Shown one piece after another: positions 30,712 to 60,448 of a stretch of DNA of 64,000 nt (position 1 is the first letter of the stretch; each line of letters opens with the position of its first letter). The position numbers and the translations under genes were made by a program. The notes beneath the pieces were generated by a model that saw only the letters and a list, made by a program, of their open reading frames with translations, did not search any database and was not told where the DNA came from. Origin of the DNA: Arenicola marina (lineage: Eukaryota > Annelida > Polychaeta > Arenicolidae); the NCBI GenBank assembly GCA_964019135.1, contig OZ025255.1, forward strand, positions 8,246,001 through 8,310,000, read 5' to 3'.

Positions 30712-30911
30712 NNNNNNNNNNNNNNNNNNNNNNNNNNNNNNNNNNNNNNNNNNNNNNNNNNNNNNNNNNNNNNNNNNNNNNNNNNNNNNNNNNNNNNNNN
30801 NNNNNNNNNNNNNNNNNNNNNNNNNNNNNNNNNNNNNNNNNNNNNNNNNNNNNNNNNNNNNNNNNNNNNNNNNNNNNNNNNNNNNNNNNNNNNNNNNNNN
30901 NNNNNNNNNNN
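30712..30911. other. Assembly gap, 200 N
   Basis: Exactly 200 N directly after the 34-bp array. The round size suggests a scaffolding placeholder, so the true distance is unknown. Upstream convertase exons or more e1 copies could be missing here. Confidence 0.98.
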
Positions 30912-31113
30912 CCTCACCCCAAACCCACCCACTGGGCCTGTTCTTTTCTATGAATTCCCATACCAGATATATCTGTTTGCTGCGTATATATGTCGGTACG
31001 TTATGCTAGGTCGTCATCCCGTGCTTGAGCAGTGGTGCCCCCTTTTGGACAGCGGAGAAGTTGGTAAACAAATCGTATTAGGAGAGGGTTATTGGGGAGG
31101 GGGGTGGGGGAGA

Positions 31114-31246
31114 AGATTATTGTTGATGCATGACTGGGCACGTGACTCAGACCAGAAGTGGGGGGAGAGGTTGGTCGGCAGGGGGGGAGAGAGAGAGAGA
31201 GAGATTATTGTTGATGCATGACTGGTGACGTGTCTCAGAACCAGGA
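31114..31246 (+). repeat. Duplicated e1a acceptor region (two copies, 88 bp apart)
   Basis: 31114-31158 and 31202-31246 share AGATTATTGTTGATGCATGA, then a CTCAG and the first bases of exon e1a (ACCAG). The upstream copy is a decoy 3' splice site lacking the rest of the exon. A purine-rich GAGA run separates them. Confidence 0.8.
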
Positions 31247-31315
31247 AGCCAGCTACGACTACAACGATATGGATCCTGACCCCACCCCTCGCTATGACAT
31301 CACCGACTTCAACAG
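31239..31315 (+). CDS. furin: Convertase alternative exon e1a
   Basis: 77-nt exon, acceptor TCTCAG, donor GTAGGT, phase 0 in and phase 2 out. It encodes N-Q-E-A-S-Y-D... through [14 protein letters not shown] plus two bases of an Arg codon completed by e2 (AG+A, then CAC for the catalytic His). It corresponds to human furin residues 168-193. The three Asp of the third calcium site (174, 179, 181) are present. Position 191, an S2-pocket Asp in human furin, is Phe here. It is the first of three tandem homologous exons. Confidence 0.85.
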
Positions 31316-34300
31316 GTAGGTTACCCCCCCCCCGCCCCCCTCCCCAGCCACCCGTCTCTCTCTCCAGCACCCCCCCCCCCCTACCACACACCCCACATCC
31401 TCACTGCCTTTTTCCTTTTGCAGCGGTTCTTTTGCAGCCCCGTGCGGTGGTGGTGTGATAAGGATTCACATAGTATCAGTGAACCATGCCCCCCACCCCC
31501 TTCCCCCATCGGTGGGGAGGGGGCGGGGGCGGGGGCGGGCATGTGGTTGTATGTAAGGCATGCTGTACACGTGGTAATACAGTAAGTATTAAGGAGTCTG
31601 TGGGTTTTTCGTTAGTATATAAGTTGTCGGTTGGTCCACTGTGCTTCCTGTTTTTAGGACGACAACGCTAGTTACGACGTGAACAATCGCGACCCGGACC
31701 CCACTCCCGTTATGACTACTCCAACGAGAACAGGTTGGTGACGGGAGTGGGGGCGTGCGGCCACCCCTTTGGGCCGGTCAGCCGCCCTGGCGCACCTTAC
31801 CCCACCCCACCCCGCTTCCCCACCCTACCCTGCCTTCCCGGCCTGCCCAAACCCCACCCCGCTTCCCCACCCCACCCTACCCTACCTATACCCTGCCTTC
31901 CCGCGGTGCCACGGCGAGATCGAATGTGCGACCCCTGCATCCCACCCTATCCACCCCGGCATCCCAACAACCCTCGCTCCCCCCCCCCCACACCTTCTAT
32001 GCGTCCTGGGCGTGGCACTAACGTCTTTTACGCGCGATGACTCCTCTTTTTGTTCACCCACTTTGTTTGTGTTCTGATTGTAGGATCCCCATGCCAGTTA
32101 TGATATAAACAGCCGTGATTCCGACCCGACCCCTAGATACGAGTACACGAATGAGAACAAGTGGTGACACCTATGGCCTTTCTCCCTCTACAATCGTAGT
32201 ATCGCGACAAAACACAAACCTCTGCCGCCGTAGACGCCGTAGTTGCCTTGGCTACCAGTACTAACTAACCCTGACGCCGCGTGCGTCGCTCTGACTTCGT
32301 TACTTGGAAACCGGGGGGGTGAGGTTTTACAGCCCGTGATTCACGATCCGCGGGTTTAGTGTGGCACTGGGCTGTAGCGTACTCACTGACTGTGCTGCCT
32401 GCCTTCCACCAGAAGCTGGTCCCCTGGTCCAGGGTAATTAACTAATGGTTTCCGTGCTGACACCAATCCTCACACCAATGCGCGTATAGTGTCGGCAGGC
32501 AATTAACAAGGGACATGGCAATATTGCCAAGTTACCAAGAGCAACACTTCTCGGGAGCCCCATTATATTATCAATAGATAATGAACAGGAGCTAATGCCT
32601 ATAGTACAACTCACTATCTAAGTACGTAGTTACCCTACCTACATTATCGCCCACGTTGTTACTATATGCGCACATTGAGCTGTTGATACGTAAATAAACT
32701 GCGCCATAAATCGTGAAATAAACATTGTATTATTCGCCTCGTGGCACTATAGATAATAATCACTGTTATTGTTACTCATGTCCAATGTAAGTAAACACGG
32801 AAACAACAGCGGAGTCAAGTTTTATGAATTCGGCGGAATCTGATTATAGTTTTGCCAACTCGGCGAGCGGATGAATATGTTATGCCGTACGTAGTGACGT
32901 CTTTGGCTTACATATTTTAACGGCGTGTGTTATTCTATTTGTGCGGCAGTCGTAGCTACATTATATAGTAGGGAGAGGGGCCTTCACCAATAACCACCTA
33001 ATTAACGCACGCTTATACATGTACTTACACCACTTACGGCTAAGGTGTTACATATAACGCACTATGGGGGGTCCCCTATCTTACATATAGCATGGCGTAG
33101 CCTACACCGGTAAGTGACACCGGTAGCTGGGGATACTTTTGTGGTTGGTCCTGGTATAAAAGATTCCTTTTCATGGAATTATCCTTTTCCTACTTGCTTT
33201 TGATTTTTATCCTGAGCTTTTTATTATCCCGGAATATCAGTAAATAAAACAGCCGCGTAAACATAATTTTTTTCCTTATTTTATAGTTGATAAAAAAAAT
33301 GAACTTTATGAGTTTGAACTTTGACCTGAACCCTCTCGGCTCCAGATACGGTTCTAGTGGCAGTTTCCCGCCCGCCACGCTTATCCATGGCGCGGTGGAG
33401 AGACGGAGAGGTTGAGGAGAGCCACGTGGTCGTGAGATGGCGGTTGCCGGTGCGGCGGCCGCTCTGCGAGTACCGCAAATCGCCGGCTACGACTGCCACG
33501 CCCCCTCCCGGGTCCGAGGCCTCTCCACCCCCGTCTCCACCTTTCCCCCCTCTCGTAGTTTATCATGTTTACCTTGTAAGCTGTCAGTCGGAACATGACA
33601 CAAAAGTAATACTAACTGCGGAATGTGTGTGATGGGGTCAAGGTCACGCCGTAAATCTCCGCGCCCTGGTCTCCCCCCCCCCCTCCCCCCCCGCCCCCTT
33701 CTGGAGGTGTTGCTCCTCACCTGGCGCTTGTAGCTGAAGGGCCTCTTTCCTCAACTATGCATCAGTTCTCACTTCCGCCACTGTTCCTTGGTAACTCCGA
33801 AGTAAATAGAAATAACTTTAATATATTTTAGATGTATTTGTTTTTGCGCTACATACCGACTCACATTCTCGGCTCTGGTGCAACAGCTATGAAAACAAAT
33901 TTTTAAATTTAATTAATACATTTGAATGTTATTACATGTAAAACAAAGAGCAAACTACGCGGAGTGAAGATCGACATATTATAGTGAAATTGACAGTTTT
34001 GATGCATTGTTGTTAATTATTTATTCCTTCAATTGTACCGCTATAATAAATTAAATTAATTGAATTATTGAATCACTACTTTAACAATTTAATAGTATTA
34101 TTATATCTATGATTTGACGTACATACTCTCTTCACCTTGTATCACAGTCGTTATCGTTGATGTCGTTAAATCGCTGATTATTATTATTATATTCAATAAT
34201 TATTTAAGTCTGATATGGACTTACATGTCTGCCCTGTTTTGACACTGACGCTGTCCCCTTGTCCCGCAGACACGGTACCCGGTGCGCGGGGGAGGTGGCC

Positions 34301-37300
34301 GCTGCCGCCGACAACCAGATATGTAGCGTCGGCGTCGCCTTCAGGGCCAGCATAGGAGGTGAGGTGTCGTGTCCTCAGCTACCCAGGCCCCCACCCCCAG
34401 CCCCACCCCCCACCCCCAGCCCCCACCCCCAGCCCCCACCCCCAGCCCCCCCCCCAGCCCCCAGAGGCAGCATAGGAGGTGAGTGTCCCCAACCCCCCAG
34501 ACCCCCAGCCTCCCCGCCCCCACCTGATAAATGGTACGCGTGAGTTTGACGTCCGCTATGGTGAAGCAATGTTTCGCCGTGGAAGAATGACCGTTCCACT
34601 GATGGTCGTTCTTCCATGTTAGCATGCACCGGTGTTTCCTAATAGCTCACGTATGACTCGCTCAGTGCCCTTCCTGCAGTTAACGATTTCGTGCCATGGA
34701 CGAGGAAGGAGCAAGGTGAGGTTCACACTCCCGATATTATTATGGGAAATGAGATGAGATTTTACGTTCATACAGCATCTCGCCACTCTTTTGTATTATA
34801 TGACGTGATTCTCGGGTCGTACCGAAGGGTAAGATCCTGTAGTGGCTAATATTCCTTTGTGAACCTTTGTCCCGTAATTCACTTGTTGGTACTTGTTATG
34901 CAGTCGATATTCAAGTGCCAATCCATCAGATTGATGGCGTTCTTGAGAGCCCCTTGAGAGTTTTAATTCATAAACCATGCCGCTAGGGATGCCTCAAGCA
35001 GACCCCTAAAGATGACTTAGTTATAAAAAAGGGACATTTAATATTGGAGGCAAAAAATCACGGGTTGAGTTTGGCAAGCGATATGTACTAAACAGTCGAC
35101 GATGTCGACGATTAGAATGCGTGTTACGCCGGTACCCCATGTTAGGAATGAGGGTTCGGGGAGAGAGGTTTGAAACTTGTAAACATGCGTACTTTGTATT
35201 GTAGACCGCGAAGTGAGTGGGTTAAGCAGGGGTGGGTAGATGGTGATAAGGCCTAAGCTGAGTGGAGAGGGAGGAGGAGGAAGAGTGGATGGGGGGGGGG
35301 GGGGGGGTGGGAGGGAGGGGCGGGCGGGCGTTAACGCGTGTGTCTCTGGGGGGGGGGGGAACCCCGCTTGGGGAGGTTCTAAAGTGAGATGGCAATAAAC
35401 AGCAGACGGTAGTAGAACGTTTTGTTCCTTCCGCCACCCCGCTCGCAAGCGCTGTGTTGAATACCGTCGGCTAAGGCGATAACCGAGCCCTGGGATACTT
35501 TCTAGCTAGTTGACTAAAACTATCGGTGAAAGGGGTGAGTGACCTTGAATTCCAGGAATCGCCTGTGCTTTCGAACCTCTCTGGTAATATTTTCAGCTCA
35601 CGTTAGGTTTTTTTTTGTTTTACGGGGCGAGCATCTTCTGGGAAGGCGAGTGCCGCTAAGGGTCTGCCCCGCTGCGGTTTTAACGGCCGAGGTTTATCCC
35701 GAGGCATGCTTTATTGTTATGCTTTATAGTTAACACGCTTTGAAGCTATGAGACGAACTGTGTACATTATTACGCCCGTCTGTGACGTCTAACAACGTCC
35801 GAGAGTTGGGAGGGTTGTGAAATATTACTACTCTTTAGTACTACCGTCTTTGACGTGTAACAACTTCCGAGAGTTATGAGGGTTGTGAAATATTACTACT
35901 CTTTGTTACTACCGTCTTTGACGTGTAACAACTTCCGAGAGTTAGGAGGGTTGTCAAATATTACTACTCTTTGTTACTACCGTCTTGGACGTCTAACAAC
36001 TTCCGAGAGTTAGGAGGGTTGTAAAATATTACTACATTGATTTGTTCGCCTTGAGGTAGATGCCTAGATATTGATGGATAAGAAAAACAACATGACTTTA
36101 TGGCCTGTTTCTCATGAAGCTTTTATTGTTTGTTTCTCGTAAAACCTTTTATGGTTTATATTTGGCAAGCCTTTTATGGTATAAACCGAAGGGATTTGGG
36201 GTTTGTTTGTTGGTTTAACGTTCGATCATTCTACTCATTAACTGGTTCCCTGTGTCTCTAGATGTTCGTGCTACTCATTAACTGGTTCCCTGTCTCTACA
36301 GTTGTTCGTACTTCTCATTAACTGGTTCCCTGTGTCTGTATCGCTAGGTGTTCGGGCTACCCATTAACTGGTTCCCTGTGTCTGTGTCGCTAGGTGTTCG
36401 GGCTACCCATTAACTGGTTTCCTGTGTCTGTGTCTCCAGGTGTTCGGGCTACCCATTAACTGGTTCCCTGTGTCTGTGTCGCTAGGTGTTCGGGCTACCC
36501 ATTAACTGGTTCCCTGTGTCTGTGTCGCTAGGTGTTCGGGCTACCCATTAACTGGTTCCCTGTGTCTGTGTCTCCAGGTGTTCGGGCTACCCATTAACTG
36601 GTTCCCTGTGTCTGTGTCGCTAGGTGTTCGGGCTACCCATTAACTGGTTCCCTGTGTCTGTGTCTCCAGGTGTTCGGATGCTGGACGGTGAGGTGACTGA
36701 CGCGGTGGAGGCCCGCTCCCTCAGCCTCAACCCGCAGCACATAGACATCTACAGCGCCTCGTGGGGGCCCGACGACGACGGCCGCACCGTGGATGGTCCC
36801 GCCCCACTGGCCAGGAGGGCCTTCTCTGACGGCATCACCAAGGTAAGTCCCACCCATTGGCCCCACCCACTGGCCCCGCCCACTGGATCGGCGGGCCTTC
36901 TCAGACGGCATCACAAGGGTAAGTCCCGCCCACTGGCCCCGCCCACTGGCCCCGCCCACTGGCCCCGACCACTGGCCCCGCCCACTGGCCCCGCCCACTG
37001 GCCGCGACCACTGGCCCCGCCCACTGGCCCCGACCACTGGCCCCGCCCACTGGCCCCGACCACTGGCCCCGACCACTGGCCCCGACCACTGGCCCCGCCC
37101 ACTGGCCCCGACCACTGGCCCCGCCCACTGGCCCCGACCACTGGCCCCGACCACCGACCCCGCCCACTGGCCCCGCCCACTGGCCCCGCCCACTGGCCCC
37201 GCCCACTGGCCCCGCCCACTGGCCCCGCTCCCTGACCCCGCCCACTGGCTCCGCCCCACTGGCCAGGAAAGGAGGGCCTTTTCAGACGGCATCACCAAGG

Positions 37301-40300
37301 TTACTCCCGCCCACTGGCCCCATCCTCTGGCCCCGGCCCACTGGCCAGGAGGGCCTTCTCTGACGGCATCACCAAGGTAAGTCCCGCCCATTGGCCCCCG
37401 CCCACTGCCCCCCACGCCCCCCCACAGGATAGGCGGGCCTTCTCAGACGGCATCACCAGGGTAAGTCCCGCCCACTGTCCCCGCCCCACTGGATAGGCGA
37501 GTCTTCTCAGACGGCATCACCAAGCTAAGTCCCGCCCACTGGCCCCGCCCACTGGCCCCGCCCACTGGCCCCGCCCACTGGCCCCGACCACTGGCCCCGA
37601 CCACTGGCCCCGCCCACTGGCCCCGCTCACTGGCCCCGCTCACTGGCTCCGCCCCACTGGCCAGGAAAGGAGGGCCTTTTCAGACGGCATCATCAAGGTA
37701 AGTCCCGCCCACTGGCCCCATCCTCTGGCCCCGCCTCACTAGCCAAGAGAGCCTTCTCAGACGGCATCACCAAGGTAAGTCCCGCCCACTGGCCCTACCC
37801 ACTGGCCGCGTCCCACTGGCTAGGAGGGCCTTCTCAGACGGCATCACCAAGGTAAGTCCCGCCCATTGGCCCCGCCCACTAGCCCCGCCCACTGGCCCCG
37901 CCCCACTGGCCAGGAGGGCCTTCTCAGACGGCATCAGCAAGGTAAGTCCCGCCCACTAGCCCCACTCACTGGCCCTTTCGACTGGACCCGCCCCACTGGC
38001 CAGGAAGGCCTTCTCAGACGGAATCACCAACGTAAGCCGCGCCCTTTGGCCCCGCCCACTGGCCTTTCCCACTGGCCCCGCCCCACTGGCCCCGCCTCTC
38101 TGGCCAGAAAGACTTTCTAAGACGGCATCACCAGGGTAAGCCCCGCTCACGGGCCCCGCCCGCTGGCCGCGCCCCTCTGGCCAAGAGTGTATTCTCCTTG
38201 CCCTACCCTCTCAGTCTCAGATCTCAAAATGTCAATTGTCTCTGAATTCTTGGGTGTATTCGCTCATTGGTTTGAAACTCCTCAGCGAGCGACACCAGCC
38301 TGGCATGCTTCAGCAATAATGTTTGGACACACAAAAAAACGTCTACATAATGATATCATATGCACTTGTGTCTACCTCGTAGTCTGACATCCAGTCCATG
38401 GCATGTCTCCCGCTGTGCCTCGTCCCTGGTGTGTGTCATTTGGCTGCCTGTAGACCCTGGATTCCTAGACAGTTTTACACACATAACTGCCGCCTGCAAT
38501 TAGGGGGGGGGGGCTGTGTTTTAAAAGTAGGCATCATTCATCCCATCCGGCTGTTCGCCCCCCCCCGTACCTTCCTCTCCTCCTCTCACATAGCCGTCCC
38601 CTCACAGCACAATCCCCCAGACCCCCTCTCTCCAGCCAACCCTGCCCAGCCAGACATAGACAGGCTCAGACATACCCCAGCCGATCCCCACCGACTGGTG
38701 CTATGTTGTACCCCGGCCCACACACCCCCTGCCACCCCGCACCCCCTGCAACCCCGCACCCCCTGCCACCCCACACCCCCCTGCCACCCCACACCCCCCT
38801 GCCACCCCACACCCCCCTGCCACCCCACACCCCCCTGCCACCCCACACCCCCCTGCAACCCGGCACGATTTACTTAATCCTGGCTGTCCCGTTACCTTAA
38901 AAGAACAAAAAATACCCTCCCCCCCCCCCCCCCCCTTTCACTCATTCGTCATTACCCTGACTGCGCCAAGTGGTAGGGGGTCGCCGACTTCTTGGCCGAG
39001 GCCGTCTATCTATAGACCGACACTCCACGGCGCACCCCCTGGGTCCTGTCCCGCCGCTAGGTGGCGCTAGTAGCCACGTGGTTCACGCGAAAAGACGAAG
39101 AACGGGAACAAAAGAAGGGGGCTGGGAAGGAGGGTCAGCTGGGAAAGCTGGGGAAGTCGGTCGTTCGAGTCCCCTTTGCGCAGGGCCGATGTCTAGAAGG
39201 GTACACAACATGCCTAGCGGTATCGGTGTCGTGCATATGAAGAGGGAAGTGTTACATGGTTACATGATGACCTCGTTACATGATGGAACTCCAATAGAAG
39301 CCCAGTCTGTGCTGCCCTGTTCTATGGGAACTAGAAGCCCAGCCTGTGCTGCCCTGTTCTATGGGAACTCCCTCCAATAAAAGCCCAGTCTGTGCTGCCC
39401 TGTTCTATGGGAACTCCGTCCAATAGAAGCCCAGTCTGTGCTGCTCTGTTCTATGGGAACTCCGTCCAATAGAAGCCCAGTCTGTGCTGCCCTGTTCTAT
39501 GGGAACTCCCTCCAATAGAAGCCCAGTCTGTGCTGCCCTGTTCTATGGGAACTCTCTCCAATAGAAGCCCAGTCTGTGCTGCCCTGTTCTATGGGAACTC
39601 CCTCCAATAGAAGCCCAGTCTGTGTTGCCCTGTTCTATGGGAACTCCCTCCAATGGAAGCCCAGTCTGTGCTGCCCTGTTCTATGGGAACTCCCTCCAAT
39701 AGAAGCCCAGTCTAAGTTGCCCTGTTCTATGGGAACTCCCTCCAATAGAAGCCCAGTCTGTGCTGCCCTGTTCTATGGGAACTCCGTCCAATAGAAGCCC
39801 AGTCTGTGCTGCCCTGTTCTATGGGAACTCCGTCCAATAGAAGCCCAGTCTGTGCTGCACTGTGCTATGGGAACTCCATCCAATAGAAGCCCAGTCTGTG
39901 CTGCCCTGTTCTATGAGAACTCCGTCCAACAGAAGCCCAGTCTGTGCTGCCCTGTTCTATGGGAACTCCCTCCAATAAAAGCCCAGTCTGTGCTGCCCTG
40001 TTCTATGGGAACTCCCTCCAATAGAAGCCCAGTCTGTGCTGCCCTGTTCTATGGAAACTCCCTCCAATAGAAGCCCAGTCTGTGCTGCCCTGTTCTATGG
40101 GAACTCCCTCCAATAGAAGCCCGGTCTGTGCTGCCCTGTTCTATGGGAACTCCCTCCAATAGAAGCCCAGTCTATGCTGCCCTGTTCTATGGGAACTTCC
40201 TCCAATAGAAGCCCAGTCTGTGCTGCCCTGTTCTATGGGAACTCCGTCCAATAGAAGCCCAGTCTGTGCTGCCCTGTTCTCTGGGAACTCCGTCCAATAG

Positions 40301-43300: not shown

Positions 43301-46300
43301 GCTTGATTTTCAATACCTTATTCCACCATATATTTATCTCACCTTATCTCGATTTGGAAATACATGTAAAGGAATTCAAGAGCGCTGGACCGCATCCTGG
43401 ATCGGATACAAGGCTGTAGTATTTTTATGAAGACTGCTGTACGTCTTACAGCACGGCCCCAATGCCAGCTTGACGTTCATAACCCGTCGTCCTCTATAGG
43501 CTGGACACCGCCCGTCACGGCCACAGTACCCGAAGGTCGGGCAGGGGGATAAAACCCCGGGGGTGGGGAGGGAGTGCGGCGCGGGGTGGGGACGTGGAGG
43601 GCGGAGACGACATATGTTTGGTGGGCGGAAGTGACGTGATCCCCGTGATCCCCCCCCCACCAGGTGAGAGGGGGCGGGGACCCTCGTTTATTGCATATTT
43701 TTCGGTGTTTGCCGCGAGCCCTGCCCTTTTGTCTGTCCGCTAGGCTGCGCGCTATGTACTGCCGACTGCCTGCTTCCGGTGGATTACCGGCTTAAGCGCC
43801 TCCCCCCCCCCCTTACCCTCCCTTCACCCTCCGACTGCCCAGGGCTTTCTTACAACCGGCTGCCGTCACCTTGCCCCACCCCCCAGGGCCGAACCCACCC
43901 CGTTGGGTGGTATCCACCCCATCCCCCCCGCCCCCCGCCCCTCACGCCCAGGTGAACTTGTATGGCTTCCCCATAGTCCGGCTCCTGCGTGGCACTCACG
44001 GTGTGAGCGGAGTGGGGGGGGGGCGGGGTGGGGTGGGGGGGGGCACACACGATGGGCTTGCTCGATGTCCATGCCCCCTCTTAATCCCCCATCCCCCTCC
44101 TGCCTCTGGTTGACTGCGACGGCCGGCGAATCCCTTCCAGCTATAACTTCATTCCACTTGACACTCCAATCCAGAGCTGTCATCCATTGCAGCGGTCTTG
44201 CTATCCGACCGGAGACACTGCACCCCCACACTGCACCCCCACACTGCACCCCCACACTGCATCCCCACACTACACCCCCACGCTAGACCCCTACGATCAA
44301 CCCCCACACTGCACCCCTACACTGCACCTCCGCACTGCACACTCACACCCTCACGCTGACAGTCCCCTCACCCTGACAGTCCCCTCACCCTGACAGTCCC
44401 CTCACCCTTACAGTTCCCTCAAGCTGACAGTCACCTTAGGCTGAGTCTCATCACGCTGACAGTTCCGTCACTCTGACAGTCCCCTCCCCCTGACACTTCC
44501 CTCACGCTGACAGTTCCGTCACGCTGACAGTTCGTCACCCTGACAGTCCCCTCACTCTGACAGTCCCCTCACCCTGACAGTCCCCTCACCCTGACAGTTC
44601 CCTCACGCTGACAGTTCCCTCCCGCCGACAATTCCCTCGTTCTGACAGTCCGCTTGGCCTGGCCGCTTGCTTCATGGCCTCGTTAAGCCCCGCGGGGGCC
44701 GGGCCCAGCAGGACCATTCAATCTAATATTAAGGGGTCTTAGGCTGGATTGCCCGGGCGTTCCCTGTGCCTTTAGCGGCCCTCCATCACGGAGCTGCCCC
44801 CCCCCCCCCCGCGCCGGCCGACTGCAGGCTCCTCACCTCCCCTTGGTGACACCACGACACTTGTGCCGCCCCTGTAATAACCAGAGCCTTCACATCGCAG
44901 TACGAGACCCCATGGATACATTGACATGTATATATAGCGTGTTTGTTACCAGGAATCGGTGCTCACTTCATTCAGGTCGGCATCATACGTTAAGCATGCC
45001 ATAATAACGTCTGTATTGCTATCGAAGTGATTATTTGTAATGGTTATTAAAATTACACGCGGCGATGCCGCCATATTGTGTTTAGATCATTTTTTGTAAA
45101 TATCTTTCTGTTTTAAATATGTTTCTTTATCATGGTTGATCATCGTAGAAGGATGTTTTCCAATGACAGGACGGTCCATTTATAGACATCATATCGCATA
45201 ATGTCGCAATCCGTATCCTCCATTACACCGCAGTTCCGGTCTCTGTCGCTAGAGGGGGTGTGTAACGCTGTTTAGCTTTGACGTGCTTGAAAGCGAGCCT
45301 AAAACACCCAGTATTTCGCTGGATTGATTTCTGTCGTTGCCCGCATACTGTCGCCAGGATGCGAACCAAAAATACTACCTAAAACAACCGCAACGTTGTC
45401 ATTGGATGTCATTTTTTTAAATTTCTGTCGCTAGGGGCGCGGCGGTCTGGGCTCGGTGTACGTCTGGGCGTCGGGGAACGGCGGCCGGGACGGCGACAGC
45501 TGCAACTGCGACGGCTACACGAACAGCATCTACACGCTGTCCATCAGCAGCGCCACGGAGAACGGCCGCATCCCCTGGTACTCCGAGGCCTGCTCCTCCA
45601 CGCTCGCCACCACCTACAGCAGCGGCTCCGGTGCCGAACGACAAATCGTGAGTGCCAGTCACACACCCTCCCCACGTCCCCCCGCCACCTTCCTCACCGC
45701 GCGGTCGGGTCAAGGTCATAGCGACGCCCGGTCTTTTAGATTTGAGTTACGACATTGGTCAATGATGGGAAACTTATATTTTACTAAATTTTACAAGGTC
45801 GTGGATGTTGAATTAGCGCGAATCATTCTTTCCGTAGGACTCACGTATTACTCAGGCATTGCGTTTACTAATCGATCTCGTGGGTCTTACTTAACATTGA
45901 AGATAACGCAAATCAACGATGATGACAACTTAATGATTTTGTGTAAGGACGTAGAGAAGTGGGGCAAAATGGGGACGCTAAGCTTTTTAGGTACTGGGAT
46001 CAGTAAAACAGTGGCAAGAGTTACCACACTTTGTTGAAACATTAAACATTGTAATTTGACCTTAGAGGCCGACTGGCATGCCTAACCAACGACAAATTAC
46101 AAAATTATAATAAAAACTAAATTAAGCCTTAATTGCCCCGTTTTACCCCATATATGAGGCAATTTGGGGTCAGATTTGGGCAACATGGGACCATTGTTTA
46201 ACGTGAATCAATTAAAATAGGAGTTAATGGGCCATTCGGTCGTCGCTAGGTTCAGTTAGTGAATAAAAATGTTTCCCATGTCCTTGGGACTTCAAGATCA

Positions 46301-49300
46301 AGTTGCAAGCATGTTTTGTCATATGCCATCGAGACGAGCTGAGAAATTAGATCAAAACTGAGAAAAATAACAAATCCTGGTTTATACTCGCATGTTGTCT
46401 CCTACCGATTCCCGTTTAGTGTCGCGAGTGCCAAATGACGTAAGTTGCTGGTATGCAAGTATTGTGCCAGGCCAGGCCACGTAACTATGGAGATATCACC
46501 CCACCCCGTTATGCTTTGCCCCCACGTCCCCTACGTGTATATTGTATTATAATAAAATTGAATCCCGCAAGACACACGTTTATATCCGTTCCTTTATAAA
46601 TACTGATATTTGTGTGTATCTTGAAATGTGCTTGTTGCAGGTAACCACTGACCTGAGAAAAGGATGCACTGAGACACATACGGGTACCTCAGCCAGCGCG
46701 CCCCTAGCGGCAGGAATCTGTGCCTTAGCGCTGCAGGCCAAGTAGGTCATCCGGTTTGGGCACATTTCACGAGAGACTCGCGCTTTTCATTGGTGTCATG
46801 AAAACGGGACTAATATCCACTGATCATTTGTTCTCAATATAGAAAACTAAAACAAATTGGGGTTACTTTCGTCCTAGTCCAATCGTAACGTCTAGGTATA
46901 TATCGATGTACAGTATTTGATCTCCTCAATTTTTCAATATTTAAGGACTGATTCGGTCTACTTACGTATTTATGCGATGACGACTTGCCACTAGCAATTC
47001 TTTTCATGATCTGTCGATGGTAAACCTCACCTATTATCGCCCTCTGGTTACCACGTGCCACTTTATTTATGGTCACCTCACCTTTTATCGCCCCTTGGTT
47101 TGTCGCTTGCCAGTCTTGGATATTCTACTGATGGTAATTTCACCTTTTATCGCCCCACCTGGTTGCCACGTGCTATTCTTTGCCACTGTTTTGATTACAC
47201 GTGTTGTCTTGGGCAGGCCGCAGTTGACGTGGCGCGACATGCAGCATATCGTGGTGGAGACTGCGCGACCCGCCAACCTCATAGCATCAGACTGGGTCGT
47301 CAATGGCAACGGACGCAAAGGTATGTACAGCGGTGTGGTAAACGTCATCAAAAAGGCCTCGTCAACGCTATCTGGTGTTCTACCGCATCGATGTAACATT
47401 CATGACTTGACGACACTGCTTTGGACAAAAGCCGTTTCATCTCCTGAAGAAATTCAACGTAACAGAAAGCGACTGGCCATTCAATTATATTGGTTGTGTA
47501 TAATGATTGTCTGTGTGGGTCCTCTCTCTGTGGGTTCCCTCTGGGGGTCCTCTGTGACTTCCTCTTTGTGGGAGTCCTCTCTGTAGGGGTCCTCTCTTTT
47601 GCTCTTTAGGTGGAGTGGGTCCTTGCGGGTCCTCCCTGTGGGGTTCCTCCCTGTGGGGTTCCTCCCTGTGGGGTTCCTCCCTGTGAGGTTCCTCCCCTGT
47701 GGGGTTCCTCCCTGTGGGGGTTCCTCCCTGTGAGGTTCCTCCCTGTGGGGTTCCTCCCCTGTGGGTTCCTCCCTGTGGGGTTCCTCCCTGTGGGGTTCCT
47801 CCCTGTGGGGTTCCTCCCTGTGAGGTTCCTCCCTGTGGGGTTCCTCCCTGTGGGGTTCCTCCTTGTGGGGTTCCTCCCTGTGGGGTTCCTCCCTGTGGGG
47901 TTTCTCCCTGTGGGGTTCCTCCCCGTGGGGTTCCTCCTTGTGGGGTTCCTCCTTGTGGGGTTCCTCCCTGTGGGGTTCCTCCCTGTGGGGTTCCTCCCTG
48001 TGGGGTTCCTCCCCGTGGGGTTCCTCCTTGTGGGGTTCCTCCCTGTGGGGTTCCTCCTATTGACTGGTGTAGTGGATAGCGCACTAGACCGCAGATCAAT
48101 CGGCTCGAGAATCCAGCCCATCCATTCATCATTCCTTGGGCCCATGTTAGCCCTTGTGTGCCTACACGCGGCCTGACACACGCACTTCCTTTCAGTGAGC
48201 CATCCACTTCGGCTTCGGGTTGATGGACGCGGCCGCCATGACAGACCTGGCCAAAAACTGGTCTACGGTCCCCGAGCAACGCAGTTGTCAGATCCACGCC
48301 GCGGGGCGTCCAAAGGTAGGTCACGTGGCCAATGGCGCGAGACCCCGCCCCCCCCCCCCTCTGGATCCGCCCCTGCTACCAATTTATAAAAAAAAAATAA
48401 AAAAATAAAAAAACGGGTCGCTTATTATTGGTTTATTTATTATTAGACGCATCTATATTAATATTTTATTTATGTATTATTATATTATTAATGTATTATT
48501 CTTTATATTTGAACGTATAAATGCGTGACGTGAAACACCCGGGCGATGCAGTAACATGAACCCGTCTCGAGAATCTTAAATCACGCTATTGAGTCACGAT
48601 GGGTCGGAAATTATAATATTAAGTGGCATTAGCACTAACAGCACTTTATCTGAAACATTATAAAGAAAACGATCCGTATTTAATATATTATAATGATCAA
48701 TCTTGCTTCATATCAAACTGAAAAAAAAATATATATCATTGTTATTATACTTATCATTATATATATCATTATTCCAAAGAAATATCATCTGCTCTGCATC
48801 CCCCCCACACCTCTCACACCTACTCCCGCACCCCTCTCCCCCCGCCTTCCAGGAAGATCGGCTCCAACCAGGAGGTGAAGGTGGAGTTGCTAAGCGACGG
48901 TTGCCGGGGGTCGACGGACGAGGTGCTGTACCTGGAGCACGTGCAGGCCGTGCTCACGCTGTCGGCCTCGCGGCGTGGCGAGGTCGAGATCTTCCTAATA
49001 TCGCCCGCCGGCACGCGGTCCACGCTGCTCGCCCGGCGCGTCCGCGACAGCTCGGCGGACGGCTTCAACAACTGGGCCTTCATGACGACCCACAACTGGG
49101 GCGAGCTCGCCATGGGCACGTGGACGCTGCAGATCAAGAACGGCGCCAGTTCCTGTGAGTATATATAAAGGAAGGTGGGGGCTGGGTGACTCCCGTTGTA
49201 TTGGAGGGCGGGAGTGACCACCCTTTCCGGGGCTCGGGGTGACCGTTCTATCGGGGGTGGTGGGGTGGGTGGGGGGGGGGTGCAGTTGGGTGGGAAGCGC

Positions 49301-52300
49301 CAGGAGGGCGATAGGTTGGGGGGTGGGGCTGTTTCATGTTTGTGAGGGTGCTAGGAGGGTGAGAATAGGTGGGATGGGGGTGTTTCATTGTGAGGGCGCC
49401 AGGAGGGTGAGGGTAGGTGGTGTGGGGGTGATTCATTGTGAGGGTGCTAGGAGGGTGAGGGTAGGTGGGATGGGGGTGTTTCATTGTGAGGCCGCCAGGA
49501 GGGTGAGGGTAGGTGGTGTGGGGGTGACTCATTGTGAGGGTGCTAGGAGGGTGAGGGTATGTGGGATGGGGGTGTTTCATTGTGAGGCCCGCCAGGAGGG
49601 TGAGGGTAGGTGGTGTGGGGGTGATTTATTGTGAGGGTGCTAGGAGGGTGAGGGTATGTGGAATGGGGGTGTTTCATTGTGAGGCCGCCAGGAGGGTGAG
49701 GGTAGGTGGGATGGGGGTGTTTTATTGTGAGGCCGCCAGGAGGGTGAGGGTAGGTGGGATCGGGGTGTTTCATTGTGAGGCAGCCAGGAGGGTGAGGGTA
49801 GATGGTGTGGGGGGTGATTTATTGTGAGGGCGGCAGGAGGGTGGAGGGGGTGGATCAGTGCGAGGGCTTTAGAGCCCCAGGGTTCATGGGGAGTGCAGGA
49901 TGGTGGTTACTTTTAGGTGGGGGGGAGAGGAGTAGGAACGCATGGGCGGTGGCTGGGGGGGCGGGTGTTGGCATTGACCGCCCACGGGTGTTGTATATAG
50001 CTTTGGTGGGTGTATCATTATCACTTACCCTCAAGGGAAAACCCTCAACGCATTCTTGCGCATTTTGGATTTCTAAAAAGTACTTTTAGTAGTTATGGAA
50101 ATTGTTAAGATACAGGGCGAATGCTGGATGCTGGTTTTTTTCGTCCTTCTTGTCTGTGTTTTTTGAAGCGCCACCTGGTGGCAGAATATTCTGAGAGAAT
50201 GGTATTTCAGACCTCACCCTCACCTATTAATCCTACTGAACGTCTTGCATGGGATGTCTTACCAACCGCAAGAGAAAGGAACTAGCGACGCTCAACTGTT
50301 TTTGCGGGTTCTTCCGAAATCCGCTAATGGGTCCCAACATGTGATATACTGTGAACTGTGTGTAATGTAAGGTCAACGTTTACTGCGACACTGTCGGTTT
50401 AAACACTGTACAGCATCTTTTTTCAACGTAAGTTTTAAATGAGTTTCTTACCAGGTCATGGCTTGGGATTGTGTGAAGACGGAAAGTCGCTTTTTTATGT
50501 AATTATTGTATGGACGTGTATGGCCCGGATCTATCCTGGGTATGATCTGGATCTGTTCAGGATCTGTTCGGGATCTGTCCTGTTCATCGGCGGCGCTGAT
50601 TTTATTTCTGTTTCCCGCACGGCTGGCTGCCCGGGGACCGCAGCCAACTCTGTCCGGCTCGTCTCCTGGACCCTGGTGCTGTATGGCACGGAGCGCCACC
50701 CCTACCGCGCCACCACCACCACACCAGCACCACCCCGGCCACGCCGCCCCCCCACCCCGCCTTCCAAGAACCCGCGCCACTCCTCCGTCTACAACCCGCC
50801 TAACATGCACCAGTTTATCGGCATCTCGCGCACGCGCGACGAGGCCTGGGGACGCCAGGACCACGTGGTCAAAGTGGGGCCCTGCAAGAAGCCCAAGGCG
50901 CCCAGCCTGCAGCAGCTGTACGCCCCCACCCCCGGCCCCGCCCCTGCCCCGCGCCCCGCCCACCCGCCGCCCCCACCGCCGCCGCCACCCCCGCCCGTCA
51001 TTAACTTCCAACAGCCGGACGCGGGCGACGACAGCGACGCACGGAAAGGCAAGCAACCCACGCTGTTATGTACCACTCCATCCCCCATCCCCCTCCCCTG
51101 CCCTCACCCGTACCATCGGCATCGAGCGCCGTTGCATACTGGTTGCATCGCGTTGTCTTATGGCTGACCCACCCCCGCCCACGCAACCACCCACCGCCGT
51201 GAATGTTACTTAAGCGTATAGTATTTTTTACCTTTCTAATTGATTTCCAGGCATGCCTTTTTAGTCCGCCCAACCCGTACGGCCTGCCTGCCAGTGGTCT
51301 GGCGCTAGATGTTGGAATGAGTGTCCCACTTTTGATTTCTTTCTTTTTTAAGGGAGGGGGGGTTTCCATTTCAGGTTTGTGCTGTATGTGTTCGTGTCTA
51401 TGTCCACTAGGCGTCTGTAGCACACATGTACCCATGGCTAGCCTGTGTGGTCTCGTCCAGTGCATGTTGTACGGGGATAGAAGACTCGCCACTCCAGAAC
51501 TCATGCCACAACAGACGCCATGTTGAAATTAACATTGAAAATAACAATTTGAAATCGGTCATGCGGCAGGTTAATTTGGGATTTTATACAGTACTTACGA
51601 TGTACGCCTCCTATGTCAAAGTGATTCGCCGAAATAAGTCGTCCGTTAGCTTGTGTTGAAATGAAACTTCCGTTAACTTGTGTTGCCACGAAATGACTCG
51701 TCCGTTAGCTTATGTTGAAATGACTCGTCCGTTAGCTTATGTCGCTACAAAATGAATCGTCCGTTAACTTGTTTTGACACGAAATGAATCGTGCGTTTGC
51801 TTGTTTTCACACGAAATTGATACGAAATGAACCGTCCGTTAGTTAGTGTTGCCACGAAATGAATGGTCTGTTAGATTGTATTACCACGAAATAAACCGTC
51901 TCTTAGCTAATGTTGTAATCGTCCGTTAGATTGTGTTGCCACGAAATGAATCGTCCGTTAGCTTATAGTGACACGAAATGAATCGTCCGTTAGCTATAGT
52001 GACACGAAATGAGTCGTCCGTTAGCTTGTTTTGGCACGAAATGAATCGTCCGTTTGCTTATAGTGACACAAAATGAATCGTCCGTTAGCTTGTAGTGACA
52101 CGAAATGAGTCGTCCGTTAGCTCACATTGGCACGAAATGAATCGTTCGTTAGCTTGTAGTGACACGAAATGAAGCGCCGGTTAGCCTGCATTGACACGAA
52201 ATGAAGCGTCCGTTAGCTTGTTATCATCCTATTTATGACTCCGAAAATGACTGGAAAAGACATTTCGTGACGTGAGACATTCAGTTTATAAGCCAGTCCA

Positions 52301-58300: not shown

Positions 58301-60448
58301 TGTTATACATTATATTGTCAAGCTATGGGTGAACTGTTGGCAGCTCAGGACTTTTTCTCTGGCTTCTCTGGCACGTCGGTAGCAATCCCTGCATGTTCAT
58401 TGGTTTGCAGTGACGTCATTGGGGCGGACTCACTGTTGGTTTACATTAGAGTAAAAGTCGTTGATTAATAAACTCTTACTTAGTTAATGTTCTTACTGAT
58501 CGGTTAATGGGTGATTCCAGCCAGGCTGTTCCATCTCCTGGGTATGGTTAGCAACAGGATGGTGATTTGTTAAGCTATTTAAGTCTCCTGTTACAGCTAT
58601 ACACCCTGTGGTGAAACTATTGTACCTTCGGCCTTGTCTGTAGAAACGGATGTTCTGTTTGCGCCAATGTGCAGTCGTAGGATCCGGTACAGATGAGAGT
58701 TGTATTGTCACTAGTGCATGCGAACCTGTTACCCCCCCCCCCCTCTCTCTGTGTCCCGATAGCGTCATGGTGGATGTCTGTCTGAAGTACGACGTATGCA
58801 TAAAGCGAACACCGGTAGTTCCATGTTACATAATCTTCATGCTTCAGATGATTGTTGTTTTTTTTATACCATGAATCAGGTATTGCTTGTGTGCGCAAGG
58901 GTTAATCAAGCTGTCTTGGTGTCCGTAATATAATTGATTACTGTGAAGGTTAGGGCACTTTTGTGGAAATATCTGCCCGTGATGCCCTTGTAATCAACGA
59001 CCACTCTCAGTGTCTATACGGTGACTGCCCCGCAAGCAAGGATAAGCATTGCGCAAGCACAACAGTCCACTAACCCACACTGTCTCTAAAGACACTCCTC
59101 CATTATTTTCTGTGTGTCCTCTCTAATATAGATGCCGTCATCACTAACATATCCGTTTCCGACGATGTAGAAACTGCGGCTGAGTCCCTAGCGTTAATAG
59201 TCTGACCGGGATATAGCTGGTTCACATACTGTGCCAACTAATGCTTGCCCCCTGTGGCTGCTTCTCTCCTCCTGTTATCAAATGCTGCTTAGGCGCTCCT
59301 TTCTCAATCCCGCTTTCACTCTAGATGGCTTCTGACACTAATACTGATTGGTCTTCCCATATATATATCACTTTCATTGTATTGTATGAAAATCCATGTG
59401 TATGATAATCTCAATATGCATTGATACGAGATATGGATAAGATATGCCTTGATACGAGATATGGATAAAGTATGCATTGATAAGAGATATCAATATGATA
59501 TGAATGGACATAAATTTTGATCTTCTTTGTGATATGTTTGATAAGTTAATATCACTTAATTAATGCAATTTCAATGGCATGTTTTTAGTTTTTGCTTACT
59601 TAAGATCTACATGGATATTCTAAGGAAGAATGTTCGATATTTACTTTAAAAGACTTCTATATGTTATGTATACAATCGTCGTATATTTAGAAATATTTAT
59701 TGACGGGTTTGGCTGTGGTTATCTACTTTCAGGCTGCCCAACTGGTGAGTTCTACCTCAACGGCTTCTGTCACGACCACTGCCCGGACACCTACTTCGCC
59801 TCCAACCATTCCTTCAGCGGCGCCGTCTCCTTCGCGGACATCCGCCTGCACACCGACGCCAGCGCCTCCAACGGGACCAAGGCGAACGAGACGTCGCCAG
59901 ACTGGTGGATGTTGGTATGCGAGCCCTGCGACCGGAGCTGCTTCACGTGCGTGGGGCCCACGGACTGGGACTGCGTCTCCTGTGCCACGCCTTACACCTT
60001 CGACGCCAACCACACGTGCGCCCGGGTGGGCGGGGGCTCTCCGGGGGGGGACACCTTCACCGGGTACCTGGACTTCCTCAGCCACCACCGCGTGTACGCC
60101 GTCTTGGCTGTGCTCGTCCTCTGCGCCCTGTGCGCGCTCGTGGTCTTCGGGGGGTTCTACGTGACGGTGCATTCCGGTCTCTGCGAGTCGTGGTCCTGCT
60201 GCTCCGGGGGGTCAGGCCCGGGGGGGCGGCACGGGGCCCGCCTCGGGGCCGCCTACAGCCGCGTGGGGGGCTCTGGGGCGAGGTTGCTGGACGGCGCCGG
60301 GCCCGAGCTGCGGGACCAACATCACCCGTTGCTGAGCGACCGGGACGGTGAGCTGGACGACTTCGATGGCAAAGCGGACGACGATATTTTCAGTGAAGTC
60401 ATCCATTATGACAAGTATAGCGGTAATATAACACGGACTCCTATATAA
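31239..60448 (+). CDS. furin: Furin-like proprotein convertase, 5'-partial, 10 visible exons
   Basis: Ca2+-dependent subtilisin-like endoprotease (S8B) of the secretory pathway, expected to cleave precursors after paired basic residues. Exons: e1 (one of 31239-31315, 31658-31733 or 32084-32160), then 34270-34358, 36670-36842, 45435-45647, 46641-46741, 47217-47320, 48200-48315, 48857-49154, 50644-51048, 59733-60448. Using e1a they total 2,292 nt, exactly 764 codons including the stop. Visible signatures are HGTRCAGE (catalytic His), [30 protein letters not shown] (oxyanion Asn), [18 protein letters not shown] (catalytic Ser), the P domain with [11 protein letters not shown] and WTLVLYGT, a Cys-rich repeat, one TM helix and an acidic tail. 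The signal peptide, prodomain and catalytic Asp exon are not in the window. A single short Cys-rich region plus TM resembles furin/Fur1, but some residues (NENKHGT in e1c, VDGPAPL) recall PCSK5/6, so orthology within furin/PCSK5/PCSK6 is unsettled. Confidence 0.95.
31658..31733 (+). CDS. furin: Convertase alternative exon e1b, apparent 1-nt deletion
   Basis: Homologous to e1a and e1c: acceptor TTTTAG, donor GTTGGT, phase 0 start ([17 protein letters not shown]). It is 76 nt rather than 77. One C appears to be missing from a C-run near 31707, so the frame shifts before what would read R-Y-D-Y-S-N-E-N-R. As written, the exon cannot join e2 in frame. It may be an assembly homopolymer error, an allelic variant or a decaying exon. 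The rest of the exon and its splice sites look intact. Confidence 0.7.
32084..32160 (+). CDS. furin: Convertase alternative exon e1c
   Basis: 77 nt, acceptor TTGTAG, donor GTGGTG (weak), phase 0 to phase 2. It encodes [20 protein letters not shown], then YTNEN and two bases of a Lys codon (AA + A of e2). The three calcium-site Asp are conserved. The S2 position is Glu and the residue before the catalytic His is Lys, as in PCSK1/5-type convertases. Without splicing the frame hits TGA within two codons, which supports a real donor here. Confidence 0.85.
32161..34269 (+). other. Convertase intron 1 (after e1c)
   Basis: About 2.1 kb, largely AT-rich and free of long minisatellites, unlike the other introns. 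No further homologous copy of exon e1 is seen in it. Confidence 0.6.
34270..34358 (+). CDS. furin: Convertase exon e2 (catalytic His)
   Basis: 89 nt, acceptor CCCGCAG, donor GTGAGG, phase 2 in and phase 1 out. It encodes [20 protein letters not shown] then GVAFRASIG. The first complete codon is the catalytic His (194 in human furin), and the following stretch carries ligands of calcium site 1. A second copy of the exon tail with a GTGAGT donor lies 120 nt downstream (ends 34478). Confidence 0.95.
34359..34478 (+). repeat. C-rich minisatellite ending in a copied e2 donor
   Basis: About 100 bp of CCCACCCCCAG-type repeats followed by GCAGCATAGGAG and GTGAGT, copying the e2 tail and donor. The 120-nt segment is open in the e2 frame. 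Confidence 0.8.
35776..36035 (+). repeat. 68-bp tandem repeat, about 4 copies
   Basis: Units contain GTGTAACAACTTCCGAGAGT and AATATTACTACTCTTTGTTA. Located in intron 2 just upstream of the acceptor minisatellite. Confidence 0.85.
36236..36669 (+). repeat. 46-bp minisatellite carrying copies of the e3 acceptor
   Basis: Tandem units contain CATTAACTGGTTCCCTGTGT, a pyrimidine/GT stretch ending CTAG or CCAG, and then GTGTTCGG, the first eight bases of exon e3. Ten acceptor-bearing units can be counted; the last is the authentic e3 acceptor. Early units are more diverged (CTCTAG, CTACAG). Confidence 0.92.
36670..36842 (+). CDS. furin: Convertase exon e3 (S1/S4/S6 pocket residues)
   Basis: 173 nt, acceptor TCTCCAG, donor GTAAGT, phase 1 in and phase 0 out. 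It encodes [20 protein letters not shown] then [20 protein letters not shown] and a tail ending AFSDGITK. The acidic residues matching human furin Glu230, Asp233, Glu236, Asp258 and Asp264 are present; Glu257 is Asp. Both ends of this exon are embedded in minisatellites made of its own splice junctions (see findings). Confidence 0.97.
36843..38180 (+). repeat. Minisatellite with copies of the e3 tail and donor
   Basis: A 13-bp CCCACTGGCCCCG array is interspersed with 11 degenerate copies of the e3 3' end (GGGCCTTCTCAGACGGCATC then ACCAAG) and its GTAAGT donor. Five copies keep AAG followed by GTAAGT exactly (near 37378, 37697, 37773, 37852 and 37941). Confidence 0.92.
38722..38866 (+). repeat. 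17-bp C-rich tandem repeat, about 8 copies
   Basis: Unit CCCCCTGCCACCCCACA in intron 3. The open frames here are repeat artefacts. Confidence 0.85.
39287..41562 (+). repeat. 46-bp minisatellite, about 49 copies
   Basis: Unit contains CTGTGCTGCCCTGTTCTATG and GGAACTCCCTCCAATAGAAG. A block of more than 200 bp starting near 40341 recurs nearly unchanged near 41066, indicating recent higher-order duplication. Intron 3. Confidence 0.93.
42134..42667 (+). repeat. 33-bp GC-rich minisatellite, about 16 copies
   Basis: Unit contains GGGCGGGGCGGGACGGTGCG followed by TGCGGGAAGGGGT. Because 33 is a multiple of 3, all frames stay open, giving spurious 180-430 residue ORFs on both strands. Confidence 0.92.
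42700..43168 (+). repeat. 36/45-bp GC-rich minisatellite, about 12 copies
   Basis: Units contain GGACAGGACAAGACAAGCGG and GGCGGGCGGTGGTGCG, with a longer variant carrying GGGATGGGTGG. Adjacent to the 33-bp array in intron 3. Confidence 0.9.
44215..44640 (+). repeat. Two short tandem arrays (15-bp and 17-bp units)
   Basis: 44215-44345 is built of CACTGCACCCCCACA. 44352-44640 is built of CTGACAGTCCCCTCACC, about 17 copies with drift. Intron 3, about 800 bp before e4. Confidence 0.85.
45435..45647 (+). CDS. furin: Convertase exon e4 (oxyanion Asn)
   Basis: 213 nt (71 codons), acceptor TCGCTAG, donor GTGAGT, phase 0 on both sides. It encodes [40 protein letters not shown] and [20 protein letters not shown], ending ERQI. 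The oxyanion-hole Asn (WASGNGG), calcium/S1 Asp in DSCNCDG and the Glu of YSEACSS are all conserved. About 8.6 kb of repeat-rich intron precedes it. Confidence 0.97.
46641..46741 (+). CDS. furin: Convertase exon e5 (catalytic Ser)
   Basis: 101 nt, acceptor TTGCAG, donor GTAGGT, phase 0 in and phase 2 out. It encodes [20 protein letters not shown] then [13 protein letters not shown]. The nucleophile is the Ser in GTSASAP. Frame and homology fit furin-family proteins without gaps. Confidence 0.96.
47217..47320 (+). CDS. furin: Convertase exon e6 (end of catalytic domain)
   Basis: 104 nt, acceptor GGGCAG, donor GTATGT, phase 2 in and phase 1 out. It encodes (K)[20 protein letters not shown] then [22 protein letters not shown] and NGxGRK are typical of the C-terminal part of the S8B catalytic domain. 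Confidence 0.95.
47631..48058 (+). repeat. 15-bp minisatellite, about 28 copies
   Basis: Unit CCTCCCTGTGGGGTT with variants, in the intron between e6 and e7. Open frames on both strands are repeat artefacts. Confidence 0.92.
48061..48124 (+). mobile_element. Possible tRNA-like SINE fragment
   Basis: GTAGTGGATAGCGCACTAGA resembles a tRNA D-arm/A-box, and CGGCTCGAGAATCCAG about 35 bases later resembles a disrupted B-box. It is too short and diverged to assign to a family. Confidence 0.35.
48200..48315 (+). CDS. furin: Convertase exon e7 (catalytic/P-domain junction)
   Basis: Phase 1 in and phase 0 out, donor GTAGGT. It encodes [20 protein letters not shown] then [16 protein letters not shown]. 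The start is ambiguous. The first AG (exon from 48196) would read V-S-H as in the family, but then shifts the frame. The AG four bases downstream (exon from 48200) gives A-I-H-FGFG and keeps the whole gene in frame. Either the second AG is used or there is an extra base near 48204-48207. Confidence 0.85.
48857..49154 (+). CDS. furin: Convertase exon e8 (P domain core)
   Basis: 298 nt, donor GTGAGT, phase 0 in and phase 1 out. It encodes [50 protein letters not shown] and [20 protein letters not shown]. This is the beta-rich P (Homo B) domain needed for folding of convertases. The usual RRGD is RRGE here. The first AG (48852) would leave a stray G; the AG ending at 48856 keeps frame. Confidence 0.88.
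49330..49860 (+). repeat. 48-bp G-rich minisatellite, about 10 copies
   Basis: Unit contains TTTCATTGTGAGGCCGCCAG and GAGGGTGAGGGTAGGTGGGA, in the intron after e8. Confidence 0.9.
50644..51048 (+). CDS. furin: Convertase exon e9 (P domain end, proline-rich linker)
   Basis: 405 nt, acceptor ACCGCAG, phase 1 on both sides. It begins [20 protein letters not shown], the last P-domain strand, then enters a linker of roughly 115 residues rich in Pro, Thr, Ser, Lys and Arg, with a run of 11 prolines before [17 protein letters not shown]. The exon ends at AAAG followed by GCAAGC. The next exon needs exactly this phase, so I infer a GC-AG intron. Confidence 0.88.
51630..52222 (+). repeat. About 32-bp minisatellite, about 17 copies
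   Basis: Unit contains CACGAAATGAATCGTCCGTT followed by AGCTTGTAGTG, with length variation between copies. Intron 9. It is AT-richer than the upstream arrays. Confidence 0.88.
53619..53818. other. Assembly gap, 200 N
   Basis: Exactly 200 N inside intron 9 of the convertase gene, flanked by C-rich runs. True size unknown. Confidence 0.98.
54727..54749. repeat. (TA)n microsatellite
   Basis: About 11 TA dinucleotides in intron 9. Confidence 0.85.
55462..55640 (+). repeat. 21-bp minisatellite, about 8-9 near-identical copies
   Basis: Unit GCCGTGTGTATGTCATCACC plus T. The copies are almost identical, implying recent expansion. The length is a multiple of 3, so frames stay open. Confidence 0.92.
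59425..59500 (+). repeat. Short tandem repeat of GATACGAGATATGGATAA type, about 3 copies
   Basis: Three diverging copies of a roughly 27-28-bp AT-rich unit shortly before the terminal exon. Confidence 0.6.
59733..60448 (+). CDS. furin: Convertase terminal exon e10 (Cys-rich, TM, cytosolic tail)
   Basis: Acceptor ACTTTCAG, phase 1 in, TAA at 60446-60448. It starts [20 protein letters not shown]. The lumenal part has ten Cys in a single furin-like repeat and four N-glycosylation sequons (NHS, NGT, NET, NHT). A hydrophobic segment [20 protein letters not shown] follows (about 60092-60151), then juxtamembrane Cys (ESWSCC) that could be palmitoylated, Gly/Arg-rich sequence and an acidic tail ([20 protein letters not shown], then DDIF). 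The acidic cluster next to a Ser-Asp-Arg-Asp CK2-type site and a Leu-Leu pair resembles TGN/endosome sorting signals in furin. The open frame extends upstream of the acceptor into intron. Confidence 0.93.

Follow-up and report, generated by a model that had tools for sequence, protein, structure and literature searches.

A furin-type convertase gene of Arenicola marina with tandem versions of one catalytic-domain exon, a candidate mutually exclusive cassette

A furin-type gene and its scaffold

The window, by which we mean the whole stretch of 64,000 nucleotides that was analysed, lies on a 44.4-Mb contig (C8) of the Arenicola marina genome (867 Mb in 762 contigs), whose mitochondrial COX1 is open under the invertebrate code and appears lophotrochozoan. 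A tblastn search with human furin recovered exons D, E, F, F2, F3, G and H, the end of the P domain and a last exon, all collinear and on the plus strand (Table 1). The joined frame holds HGTRC, WASGNGG and GTSASAP, which we take to be the motifs of the catalytic His, the oxyanion Asn and the catalytic Ser. It also shows the order of domains of a furin-like convertase, with an S8 catalytic domain (PF00082, E = 1.1e-47 when exon copy e1a is included and 3.6e-47 with e1c) followed by a P domain (PF01483, E = 6.8e-24). Identity to human furin is 78-82% in exons E, F and F2; among solved structures, human furin (E about 6e-85) is closest by sequence, followed by kexin (E about 1e-44). The last exon is Cys-rich, with a hydrophobic stretch recognised by eye, and has no Pfam match. 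Prodomain-like exons were located at about -29.0 and -22.7 kb in window coordinates.

Exon E is flanked by tandem arrays (36250-36677 and 36794-38000) that represent many potential decoy splice sites, with acceptor copies in a 46-nt unit present about eight times and copies of the donor end in units of 64-90 nt. A paralogous gene on the same contig likewise carries repeats of the end of its own exon E (29329151-29330643).

The exon preceding the e1 copies is absent from the window. Its first part, DMNVEMAWLKGYTGEGVV, was found on the minus strand at -15916 to -15996, about 16 kb to the left of window base 1, where it abuts a 200-N gap; a search of 124 kb did not recover the remainder, in which the catalytic Asp is expected. 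Because a furin exon thus sits in minus orientation at the left edge of the piece -15997..30711 of contig C8, this piece has probably been scaffolded backwards. Turning it round between its two bordering gaps (-16197..-15998 and 30712..30911) would place the DMNVEMAWLKGYTGEGVV exon just to the left of the gap before e1a.

Table 1. Features of the furin-type gene, in window coordinates
Feature	Position	Strand	Remarks
200-N gap	30712..30911	.	with the left piece turned round, would contain the remainder of the exon preceding e1a
Partial tandem copy of the e1a acceptor and first e1a bases	31110..31158	+	other copy 31197-31248
Exon copy e1a	31239..31315	+	77 nt, phase 0 to 2; 25 amino acid codons + AG
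Exon copy e1b	31658..31733	+	76 nt as assembled; single base missing after DPTP; frameshift
Exon copy e1c	32084..32160	+	77 nt, phase 0 to 2; 25 amino acid codons + AA
Exon D, HGTRC, catalytic His	34270..34358	+	tblastn, joined frame
Exon E	36670..36842	+	tblastn, joined frame
Exon F, oxyanion Asn region	45435..45647	+	tblastn, joined frame
Exon F2, GTSASAP, catalytic Ser	46641..46741	+	tblastn, joined frame
Exon F3	47217..47320	+	tblastn, joined frame
Exon G	48196..48315	+	extra base near start, off-phase end relative to the furin-2-like paralogue
Exon H, P domain	48853..49154	+	start 48853, or 48857 by a second acceptor; PF01483 on 48857-49156
Exon with P-domain end (...SWTLVLYGT)	50644..50780	+	tblastn; end is the limit of the stretch read
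Open frame holding the last exon (Cys-rich, hydrophobic stretch, tail)	59630..60448	+	frame bounds, not exon bounds

Three exon copies and the frame they allow

Upstream of exon D lie three homologous exon-like blocks, as a sequence-only reading of this DNA had proposed; their borders (AG before and GT after each of e1a, e1b and e1c) and a first codon common to all three bear the proposal out. With human furin as tblastn query, the three copies were recovered at E = 0.003 or better, both in the window and in the window plus 60 kb upstream, and the next-best matches to this segment of furin were chance-like (E = 0.9 or worse). Searched as DNA against the whole genome, e1a and e1b each matched nothing but themselves, with no second near-identical locus; near-identical copies are all that such searches reach, since neither query recovered its sister copies. 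The introns between the copies, calculated from the exon coordinates, measure 342 and 350 nt.

Two of the copies, e1a and e1c, have the length of 77 nt and the phase 2 end that had been claimed for them. Exon D opens with A/CAC GGT (the slash marking the codon border), and the join yields ...FNR HGTRC with e1a and ...ENK HGTRC with e1c. The further claim that all three copies end in phase 2 is wrong for e1b, which ends in phase 1 in the assembly: a base is missing between DPTP and RYDYSNENR, and the latter part is read in another frame. Because the two halves of e1b lie in different frames, no alternative splice site rescuing its frame was seen by eye. The acceptor of e1a has the poorest pyrimidine tract (8 of 16 positions) among those of e1a, e1b, e1c, D, F, F2 and H, the others having 9-15 (12/16 for e1b, 11/16 for e1c), and the donor of e1c is weak (AA/gtggtg). 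A short tandem duplication upstream of e1a has duplicated its acceptor together with its first exon bases (Table 1).

All eight combinations of the three copies were joined in silico to the next five exons. Either e1a alone or e1c alone gives a frame that is open throughout 252 amino acids. The remaining six combinations (no copy, e1b, the three pairs and the triple) run into a stop after 18-53 amino acids, that of e1b spliced to exon D coming after 53. The frame therefore allows single use only, of e1a or of e1c. The earlier argument that joining any two copies shifts the frame, leaving one usable at a time, thus stands for e1a and e1c and does not extend to e1b, which is frameshifted by itself as assembled.

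Sequence criteria for mutually exclusive exons (MXE) are similar length, homology, conserved splice sites and the same frame (PMC3923563, in excerpt). The e1a/e1c pair displays them all, with 77 nt each, 14 of 25 amino acids identical, AG..GT borders and the same phases. As for e1b, its length class (76 nt), its homology (14/24 amino acids identical to e1a, 17/24 to e1c) and its splice sites agree, but it is one nucleotide short of the reading frame and is not counted as a member of the cluster on this assembly. Lengths not divisible by three are common in such clusters, being found in 60% of the human ones according to an excerpt of PMC5740500. As introns of 342 and 350 nt are presumably too long for simple steric exclusion, exclusivity would have to come from the frame together with RNA surveillance, or from regulators. 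Looping out of each copy by complementary flanks was also considered and the pairing mechanism was rejected: the duplex energies are ordinary for the window, with 9.6%, 39% and 46% of 386 random places equalling those of e1a, e1b and e1c, respectively.

Divergence, paralogues and the lesion of e1b

The copies are 59-66% identical in pairwise DNA comparisons (51/77, 46/78 and 50/77). The introns between them are not alike: six comparisons of 100-nt flanks gave 42-51% identity, every value lying slightly above the mean (39-47%) and below the maximum (46-56%) of 200 shuffles. Differences at codon positions 1, 2 and 3 number 10, 6 and 17 (of 25) for e1a-e1c, 5, 2 and 17 (of 24 each) for e1b-e1c, and 10, 4 and 11 (of 24) for e1a-e1b, the counts with e1b leaving out one e1b codon; in the first two pairs the changes are thus concentrated at third positions. 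Nei-Gojobori pS/pN values are 0.945/0.327, 1.148/0.145 and 0.586/0.296 for the same pairs in that order, and dS is saturated in two of the three. In neutral simulations (substitutions only, 20,000 runs per setting), a survivor being an open exon that keeps the three Asp, Asn192 and at least 14 of 25 residues, survival was 2.1-2.6% at 0.3 substitutions per site, 0.02-0.035% at 0.55 and zero at 0.8 and 1.1. Strong synonymous divergence under constraint on the protein, as the sequence-only reading had suggested, is therefore supported for e1a and e1c by pS/pN, third positions and simulations alike. The dN/dS check that it had called for put pN below pS in all pairs. Compared with the homologous exon of a furin-2-like paralogue (C8b, see below), e1a and e1b lack a strong third-position excess (7, 9 and 13 of 25; 10, 6 and 9 of 24), so that selection stands out less clearly for e1a and e1b taken singly than for the pairs, 25 codons having little power for such tests.

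A scan of the genome for the S8 domain gave 41 matches, among which three further convertase genes were recognised by their motifs: C5, C8b (contig C8, 29.36 Mb) and C1, presumably PC2-like, furin-2-like and PC7-like, respectively. In each, one homologous exon was found at the corresponding position, running from phase 0 to phase 2 and ending AACAG/GTAA (slash at the exon border), its length being 77 nt in C5, 77 nt in C8b and, by our own count, 83 nt in C1. When further copies were sought by tblastn with e1a and e1c over 30 kb at C5 and 80 kb at C8b, all other matches had E values of 0.28 or worse. The C1 exon was itself missed by tblastn over 20 kb and came to light only when its intron (44412515-44415500) was scanned for the motif; a second C1 copy, if diverged, could therefore escape detection. 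Among the four convertase genes examined, the triplet was detected only in the furin gene of the window.

The copies e1a and e1c and the C8b exon are about equidistant (14, 14 and 15 of 25 residues identical). At the position corresponding to residue 191 of human furin, Phe is common to e1a and the PC2-like exon, and Glu to e1b, e1c and the furin-2-like exon. The shared Phe might suggest that e1a was grafted in from the PC2-like gene; this found no support, e1a being 14/25 identical to e1c, C8b and C5 alike. Two observations from the same survey are a second partial copy of the end of its own exon D in C5, and a locus elsewhere in the genome (G000 C20:13901626-14123567) where S8 subtilase matches cluster on both strands, several lying in long open frames.

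The missing base of e1b is not the only anomaly of its kind in the gene. Near its start, exon G carries a base that the rest of the family lacks, and its end is in phase 1 instead of the phase 2 of C8b; second acceptors four bases on (gtgag/CC and ggaag/AT) could mask these anomalies. Both exons fall in a single 22,707-nt piece bounded by N gaps (30912-53618). Frames elsewhere in the genome are mostly sound: two HSP70 genes read through 651 and 694 amino acids, and 45 of the 53 HSP70 matches are free of stops and eight have one, a count in which introns, ends and errors are pooled. Among the tblastn matches to the three paralogous convertase genes, no exon split by a one-base shift was seen. 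Since exon G has one-base anomalies of its own within this piece, the missing base of e1b is probably an assembly error rather than a real break. The HSP70 search also revealed three adjacent gene copies of similar score (G000 C19:22565451-22587513).

A candidate cassette, its alternatives and its possible effects

An alignment with human furin anchored on the catalytic His, presumably His194 of the human enzyme, puts e1 residue 24 at position 191. Asp174, Asp179 and Asp181 are kept in all three copies, and the differences previously read at residue 191 (Phe, Glu and Glu in e1a, e1b and e1c) and residue 193 (Arg, Arg and Lys) were likewise recovered, those of e1b in its shifted frame only; e1c also has Ser for Pro at residue 180. 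The three Asp constitute the Ca(III) site of furin (PMC12649860, in excerpt) and residue 191 is one of two that delineate S2 (PMC11859198, in excerpt), so the e1 exon codes for all three Ca(III) ligands plus a residue at the S2 edge. In the excerpts of two structural studies, the contacts of Asp191 with inhibitors, where named, are made by its main chain (PMC12703725; PMC11859198), and a swap of Phe and Glu side chains need therefore not shift specificity much. A change of substrate preference through the swapped exon is possible, and altered calcium binding or stability would be equally so.

Taken together, these data point, with rather more weight for than against, to a furin-type gene with a mutually exclusive exon cassette in which at least e1a and e1c are in use and exclusivity is enforced by the frame. 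We favour an e1a/e1c cassette because of their same length and phase, the frame that permits single use, the saturated divergence accompanied by constraint, and the one copy found in each paralogue. At least e1a and e1c would each be spliced into some transcripts, and transcripts with two copies or none would be frameshifted and removed. The resulting isoforms would differ around the third calcium site and at the edge formed by S2 and the catalytic His, which may affect calcium dependence, stability or substrate choice. Most likely, e1b would be a third functional version, its missing base being an assembly error. More tentatively, one furin gene might give rise to three enzymes by swapping its Ca(III)/191 exon, the copies being about as distant from one another as members of the convertase family, and exon duplication would be doing the work of gene duplication.

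A narrower cassette of e1a and e1c only, with e1b as the relic of a recent break, skipped or else serving as a poison exon lowering furin output, strikes us as rather unlikely. The 76 nt of e1b and the stop that its use entails speak for it, and any break would have to be recent, given the still good acceptor, donor and remaining codons; exon G, which belongs to the conserved core of the gene and likewise lies in the 22,707-nt piece, has its own extra base and off-phase end, and this, with HSP70 frames intact elsewhere, argues instead for local consensus errors. The same one-base length anomalies, three in all with the two in or beside exon G, could be read as decay of the whole furin copy into a pseudogene whose exon triplet has no present use. 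This we regard as very improbable, in view of the 78-82% identity of E, F and F2 to human furin, the 252 open amino acids with His, Asn and Ser motifs intact, the S8 and P domains far above cut-off, and the lack of a near-identical second copy of e1a or e1b in the genome. Between these two in probability, and still improbable, is a gene in which one copy is constitutive and the others are dead, left over from an ancient local duplication at a locus rich in repeats. Such an origin would suit the weak acceptor of e1a, which lies partly inside a local repeat, the wealth of tandem copies of exon ends in the furin gene and in its C8 paralogue, and the comparisons of e1a and e1b with C8b, where a strong third-position excess is lacking. 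Against it, a dead exon at saturated synonymous distance should have lost its frame, its motif or its splice sites; frame and motif were retained in at most 0.035% of simulated cases at 0.55 substitutions per site, but in 2.1-2.6% at 0.3.

The cassette that we favour resembles known MXE clusters (Mhc, Dscam, OGDH 4a/4b and the human set) in its tandem homologous internal exons encoding the same piece of a domain, and in that e1a and e1c have equal lengths and phases, are not multiples of three and break the frame when used jointly. Unlike in those clusters, exclusive use is here predicted from the frame, e1b is out of frame as assembled, and neither a steric nor an RNA-pairing mechanism was found. 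A calcium-related precedent exists in OGDH, whose mutually exclusive exons 4a and 4b switch the calcium sensitivity of the enzyme (PMC7969005, in excerpt). In its S8 and P domains and its catalytic motifs the gene is like the furin/kexin-like S8 convertases, and it differs from other convertases in having three versions of the Ca(III)/191 exon instead of one. To our knowledge, splice isoforms of convertases vary at the C-terminal end and not in this exon. No cassette of mutually exclusive exons in furin or another proprotein convertase was apparent in the titles and abstract openings of the open-licence papers retrieved. On these grounds the e1a/e1c pair is likely a new case of the known MXE type, in a gene where it was unexpected, furin specificity being usually regarded, as far as we know, as fixed per gene. 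If this is true, one lugworm convertase would naturally come in a matched set of active-site variants, allowing direct tests of what the third calcium site and residue 191 do.
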